DNA from: Gemmatimonadota bacterium
GTDB lineage: Bacteria; Gemmatimonadota; Gemmatimonadetes; Longimicrobiales; Gaopeijiaceae
Direction of reading: 5' to 3'
Length of the DNA: 64,000 nucleotides
NCBI GenBank assembly: GCA_028874995.1
Contig: JAPPGM010000001.1
Coordinates: forward strand, 4,871-68,870
Translations under genes and position numbers: made by a program
In this document: in pieces, positions 1,450 to 1,488 of the stretch
How positions within the stretch are numbered: the first letter of the stretch is position 1
How the letters are laid out: every line of letters begins with the position of its first letter
The notes under the pieces: model-generated
Database searches by the model: none
What the model was told of the DNA's origin: nothing
Seen by the model: the letters and a program-made list of their open reading frames with translations, nothing else

Positions 1450-1488
1450 TTAGGAGGCAGTCGCTCTATCCACCTGAGCTACGGGGAC
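1450..1488 (-). pseudogene. 5' half of tRNA-Arg(CCU), truncated at the anticodon loop
   Basis: Read on the minus strand from 1488, the sequence has a 7-nt 5' acceptor strand (GTCCCCG), TA at positions 8-9, a paired D arm (GCTC, loop AGGTGGATA, GAGC), the 5' strand of the anticodon stem (ACTGC) and a full anticodon loop CTCCTAA with anticodon CCT (1454-1452). After the loop, the expected 3' anticodon strand (GCAGT), T-arm (GGTTCGA type) and 3' acceptor strand (CGGGGAC) are all missing; unrelated sequence follows. A complete 3' half is not present anywhere between position 1 and here. Breakage exactly at the loop is typical of tRNA-targeting integrases; a deletion is the alternative. It cannot form a working tRNA as it stands. 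Confidence 0.75.

Follow-up and report, generated by a model that had tools for sequence, protein, structure and literature searches.

The sublocations that integrases use within tRNA genes were reportedly set out by Williams in 2002. Displaced tRNA fragments are described as the standard signature of genomic islands in the Islander report (PMC4383910), which counts 2083 anticodon-centred islands and attributes a displaced 5' fragment to 159 of 3919 islands, as against a 3' fragment in the other 3760. For tRNA targets in general, a review states that the anticodon stem-loop is shaped like an integrase core site, and that the archaeal pTN3-like integrases use the 5' half of the tRNA gene (PMC8371274).

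The locus discussed here lies in a stretch of 64,000 nucleotides (the window) from the genome of a sponge-associated member of the Gemmatimonadota, where half of a tRNA-Arg(CCU) gene was found at positions 1450-1488. It can be stated with high confidence that this half gene is a displaced 5' fragment, namely one attachment junction, of an integrative element inserted in the anticodon loop of the gene. The arrangement resembles the tRNA islands outlined in the Islander text in its displaced fragment at one end, and would further share with them a tyrosine integrase, a rebuilt tRNA gene at the other end and a crossover in the anticodon loop, but differs from most of them in that the 5' rather than the 3' fragment is displaced (PMC4383910); unlike the archaeal pTN3-like integrases, the element belongs to a bacterium (PMC8371274). 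A complete member of the family in genome G001, which harbors an integrase frame and a MobC/NikA-like gene, recalls the integrative and mobilizable elements, although its putative relaxase is recognised by reading frame and inspection only, and a second member of 5 kb in G021 is without an identified mobilisation gene. Among open-licence papers on Palauibacter, on mobile elements of sponges or Gemmatimonadota, on integrative and mobilizable elements, on attP inverted repeats and on site switching, no title or abstract opening described the element family. Insertion with rebuilding of the tRNA gene is a known trick, of which the present case is the rarer mirror image, in a family with a shared hairpin-like end.

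The half gene and its site among relatives

The window corresponds to bases 4871-68870 of contig C132 in an assembly of 191 contigs that is 96.7% complete, and the features at the junction are collected in Table 1. Read on the minus strand from 1488 to 1450, the 39 nt are 100% identical to positions 1-39 of the intact tRNA-Arg(CCT) genes of relatives, extending from the 5' end to the last base of the anticodon loop, exactly after which the gene breaks off. The bases past the break read TCCAGGCCAAAGGGACG..., while the expected 3' half of tRNA-Arg(CCU) would read GCAGTAGGCC..., indicating unrelated DNA. As in the Islander definition, the fragment reaches a gene end and is not an internal piece. 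The sequence-only reading had placed the cut at precisely this base, which the comparison bears out, and it had named a complete tRNA prediction over 1450-1488 as counterevidence; no tRNA was called there by ARAGORN run on the window, within which Rfam also gave zero matches at the gathering threshold.

Table 1. Features at the tRNA-Arg(CCU) junction (window coordinates)
Feature	Position	Strand	Basis
Displaced tRNA-Arg(CCU) 5' half, positions 1-39, native side of the junction	1450..1488	-	Comparison with relatives' intact genes
Host-side neighbouring gene (ORF) outside the element, anchor for site comparison among relatives	1792..3564	+	Anchoring of the locus
Element side of the junction	1..1449	.	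GC 61%, against 68% in the remaining window; putative extent of the element
Spacer of 25 nt, opening the element past the junction	1425..1449	-	Spacing kept by other copies at 10 of the 11 tRNA junctions measured
Conserved inverted repeat of the element end, arms 1417-1424 and 1372-1379, with conserved loop GGACTGCACGATCTGC between them	1372..1424	-	
Conserved element end, about 145-150 bp, common to the elements of G003, G009, G015, G018, G020 and G022	1300..1449	-	

The same reading had noted that no 3' half exists to the left, which holds for the window and fails for the genome as a whole, where C88:31288-31324 is the 3' half of tRNA-Arg(CCU), with 16 nt from the end of the 5' half in front of it and then the contig end. 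The C88 copy would be joined to a complete 5' half, so that a complete rebuilt gene is probably present in this genome. Its assembly yielded 17 RF00005 matches over the cut-off, compared with 47 and 45 in two complete genomes of the genus, which implied that the missing tRNAs are mostly an assembly matter. To the left of the junction, the unshared DNA runs on at least to the start of C132, 4870 bp outside the window, and no integrase match was obtained on this element side of the contig (L009); nor was the integrase-side end of the element found elsewhere in the assembly. Defence-like genes occur on the element side, just left of the window, at L009 (G000:C132) 13-402, 1164-4055 and 4391-4771, with products including a C-terminal fragment of a type III restriction enzyme, a Dsr1-like protein and an 8xMP membrane protein. 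Within the window and far from the half tRNA, a distant tyrosine-recombinase-like frame is located at about 44435-44923 on the minus strand (28% identity to the G022 integrase, E 1.5e-4), and ARAGORN reported at 23198-23294 on the plus strand a "tRNA-???" with a four-base anticodon, which has no Rfam match and is probably spurious.

The locus was compared in 21 of the 23 genomes of the genus (all except G010 and G011) and at two loci from outside the genus, with the tRNA and the neighbouring ORF as anchors. The half tRNA together with the same kind of element end was recognised in eight of the 21, namely G000 (the genome of the window), G003, G004, G009, G015, G018, G020 and G022, and an intact tRNA-Arg(CCT) gene occupies the site in the other 13, one of which, G014, was assigned to this class with a run of N cutting into the 3' part of the tRNA. 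In G012, an intact gene follows an upstream flank near-identical to that of the window's genome, so this genome shows the empty site. In G004 the left arm of the element, the tRNA half and 11 bases from the start of the right end follow directly on one another, an arrangement that tandem elements or a circle junction would produce, and G019 bears an element-like left arm ahead of an intact tRNA gene, with no integrase in the stretch fetched.

The proposed integration and its alternatives

Three of the eight scar genomes, G009, G015 and G022, possess in addition an intact tRNA-Arg(CCT) gene on another contig (L115, L114 and L117, respectively), and in each of them a tyrosine integrase gene (PF00589) points at this rebuilt tRNA and ends about 50 bp before it. 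Over 390 aa, the integrase proteins of G009 and G015 share 94 and 99% identity, respectively, with the G022 protein. In these tRNA-Arg cases with a 5' half, the two element ends are always found on different contigs and never both on one. An allele in the D-loop region distinguishes the copies: CAGATGG, the native allele, is present in the scars of the three genomes and in the intact genes of G002, G005, G006 and G013, and CAGGTGG, the element allele, in the three rebuilt genes. The simplest reading of these alleles would be that the element supplied the 5' half of the rebuilt gene, with the point of exchange downstream of the D-loop.

The proposed mechanism is as follows. An integrative element would occupy the DNA left of the half gene, and its attachment site would carry its own copy of the tRNA 5' half. 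The anticodon stem-loop, CTGC-CTCCTAA-GCAG, consists of two inverted arms around 7 bp, which is the shape of an integrase core site, and an integrase of the same family would presumably have made the crossover in this 7-nt loop. The 5' half of the element would thereby be joined to the 3' half of the host, rebuilding the gene at the far end beside the integrase gene, while the old 5' half of the host would stay beside the other end of the element. Several points of the sequence-only reading can be judged against these data. Its link between the loop breakpoint and tyrosine-integrase recombination is supported. The second full tRNA-Arg(CCU) that it suggested seeking was encountered, intact, on other contigs of G009, G015 and G022; the integrase that it proposed to look for next to the tRNA gave no match on the element side of the window's own contig and is present beside the rebuilt copies. 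It was also right that normal integration rebuilds the tRNA, but the rebuilt copy sits at the far end of the element.

Since the rebuilt copy is at the far end, a lone half on the near side is a normal product of integration, and the imprecise excision that the sequence-only reading invoked to account for it is unneeded. A scar of imprecise excision or of decay, in which the element is mostly gone or rotted and a lone junction remains, would be compatible with the lack of a convincing gene in window 1-1449 and with the failure to recover the integrase-side end in the same assembly. It is nevertheless improbable, as no damage is seen at the junction or in the first 145-150 bp of the element, which recur with 91-99% identity in six other genomes, the 3' half survives in the same genome, and the half gene is just what a clean insertion leaves. 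The interior of the element may have decayed.

An assembly chimera, for which a genome in 191 contigs gives some occasion, is very improbable, given that the same junction recurs in seven other assemblies, in one of them just 11 bp from a contig end. A split or permuted tRNA gene with halves joined after transcription, the other option of the sequence-only reading, might be suggested by two halves on two contigs, but it scarcely deserves credence in view of the contiguous, ordinary genes at the site in the 13 intact-gene genomes and of the rebuilt intact genes in three of the eight scar genomes. Group I introns in the anticodon loop of tRNA-Arg(CCU) are known in bacteria, and the break falls in that very loop, yet such an intron is the least credible explanation of all: instead of an intron RNA fold followed by the 3' exon, the window gave no Rfam match at the gathering threshold, the 3' half is absent from the 6.3 kb of contig beyond the break and lies on C88 with its own downstream flank, and the shared element end also joins 3' halves in reverse.

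The conserved end of the element

Between the end of the anticodon loop and the stem of the inverted repeat, 10 of 11 measurable cases have 25 nt and the remaining one has 26; this fixed spacing, whichever tRNA or half is involved, points to a role of the repeat in the attachment site, of which it is probably a part. For the analysis of the repeat, copies were collected after 13 of 80 loci (chance hits or truncated copies) and identical stretches had been dropped. The search pattern fixes the loop sequence, and only the covariation test of the stem is free of that choice. In the stem, 93.2% of cells are paired, and two-sided changes were counted in 45 cells, compared with 14.3 in shuffles (0 of 500 as high), where the shuffles ignore relatedness and 27 of the 45 changes fall in one pair. 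The proportion of 27 G.U to 18 A.C mismatches (p = 0.23) does not discriminate between an RNA hairpin and a DNA dyad.

Other identities of the repeat were considered. The attC sites of integrons end in RYYYAAC/GTTRRRY motifs, which were not seen by inspection of the repeat, and a known RNA was set aside with no Rfam match at the gathering threshold. Over an oriT, a role in attachment is favoured by the 25-nt spacing and by the presence of the repeat in the 5-kb element of G021, which has no identified mobilisation gene.

A second copy of the arm motif, across the core, was detected in L114-L118 at 3 bp before the tRNA, with a score that 0.6-1.3% of background stretches reach; it is weak in L277 (background fraction 0.04) and absent in L306 (0.62). 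These scores are suggestive of an arm-motif copy on the other side of the core in one subfamily only.

Spread, targets and cargo of the family

A covariance model of the element end (E up to 0.001) retrieved 16 copies in the window's own genome, 18 in G001, nine in G021 and none in G026, and with the limit set at E 1e-6, matches were obtained in 26 of 150 Gemmatimonadota genomes. When GTDB genomes were scanned by pattern, at least 119 stretches were returned, and the matches listed comprise 80 loci with 82 pattern matches. The end was thus encountered in Gemmatimonadota records, including Candidatus Palauibacter, and also in MAGs labelled Gammaproteobacteria (L162, L173, L177, L179, L194, L197, L227 and others), some on contigs of more than 100 kb; the latter occurrences may reflect transfer across phyla or mis-binning. 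The sequence of the end had no match in plasmid or phage collections, and its pattern is present in three IMG/VR contigs.

Among the matches listed, 12 of 80 flanks are a tRNA half, either 5' or 3', ending at the anticodon loop, while control stretches gave one tRNA match in 327; the test used 80 of the 82 matches, two being too near the contig start, and chance pattern hits were kept in. The best matches of these halves are to Arg(CCT), Val(TAC), Pro(TGG) and Ile(GAT), the half in L216 being weaker and of uncertain identity. The count of spacing and flank motifs, which left out nine of the 80 loci together with any match lying within 100 bases of the start of its contig, revealed palindromes such as CTGCCAAAATGGCAG in 11 of 57 non-tRNA flanks, compared with 14 of 1140 random stretches, and a motif read as the 3' end of an integrase gene in four, compared with four of 1140. 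None of the target motifs tried matches 42 of the 57, so that the target is unexplained for most copies. In L155, L199, L201 and L223 the element end adjoins the apparent 3' end of a different tyrosine integrase gene, close to the catalytic tyrosine codon, and a similar flank was noticed by inspection in L010 and L013, as if integrase genes might themselves be targets of the element.

A whole element is visible in the complete genome G001, where 20.9 kb separate a displaced tRNA-Pro 3' half, accompanied by the repeat, from an intact tRNA-Pro(TGG) gene, and a perfect direct repeat of 63 bp marks both ends of the element. An integrase frame, apparently broken in two, stands just before the intact tRNA-Pro, and a C-terminal integrase fragment also precedes the displaced half, as in tandem insertions. 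The interior harbors Hma-type and CBASS-type defence genes in addition to the MobC/NikA-like gene, the relaxase candidate having been recognised by reading frame and inspection and not by profile; no such mobilisation features were seen for the element at the window. On contig L114 of G015, a displaced tRNA-Arg 3' half accompanied by the repeat is followed by an integrase and, about 10.5 kb away, by an intact tRNA-Arg gene, on the opposite side of which lies the integrase of a second element of the 5'-half type. The Islander configuration, with fragment and tRNA gene correctly ordered and oriented on one replicon, is presented by the 3'-half counterpart on the single contig L114 and by the tRNA-Pro element in closed G001. 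The element of about 5 kb in G021, in which an integrase was identified and no mobilisation gene, is flanked by copies of a 63-bp target, itself a repeated sequence at this place. On L277 of this genome, a 63-bp stretch ending TTGCCAGCCCGGCAG, which is the target of the 5-kb element, was observed several times around it (330-400, 5648-5881 and 10493-10552).

A broader proposal, put forward tentatively and with less than even confidence, is that a single family of integrative elements is common to sponge-associated Gemmatimonadota and the MAGs labelled Gammaproteobacteria, with a shared structured arm of the attachment site (the covarying inverted repeat, at 25 nt from the crossover), which may serve for either tRNA half and for a wide range of anticodon arms or similar palindromes. 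Such an arm would be a portable module allowing easy change of target and stacking on both sides of one tRNA gene.

What looked like an odd broken tRNA gene marks precisely where a mobile element ends on one side, in a lineage that is uncultured. The family pairs a single conserved end with several targets, tRNA genes and others, and with either tRNA half, and so forms a natural series in which the change of integrase target could be tested directly. At least one member, that of G001, carries Hma- and CBASS-type defence genes, and these elements are routes by which such genes could spread among sponge symbionts.
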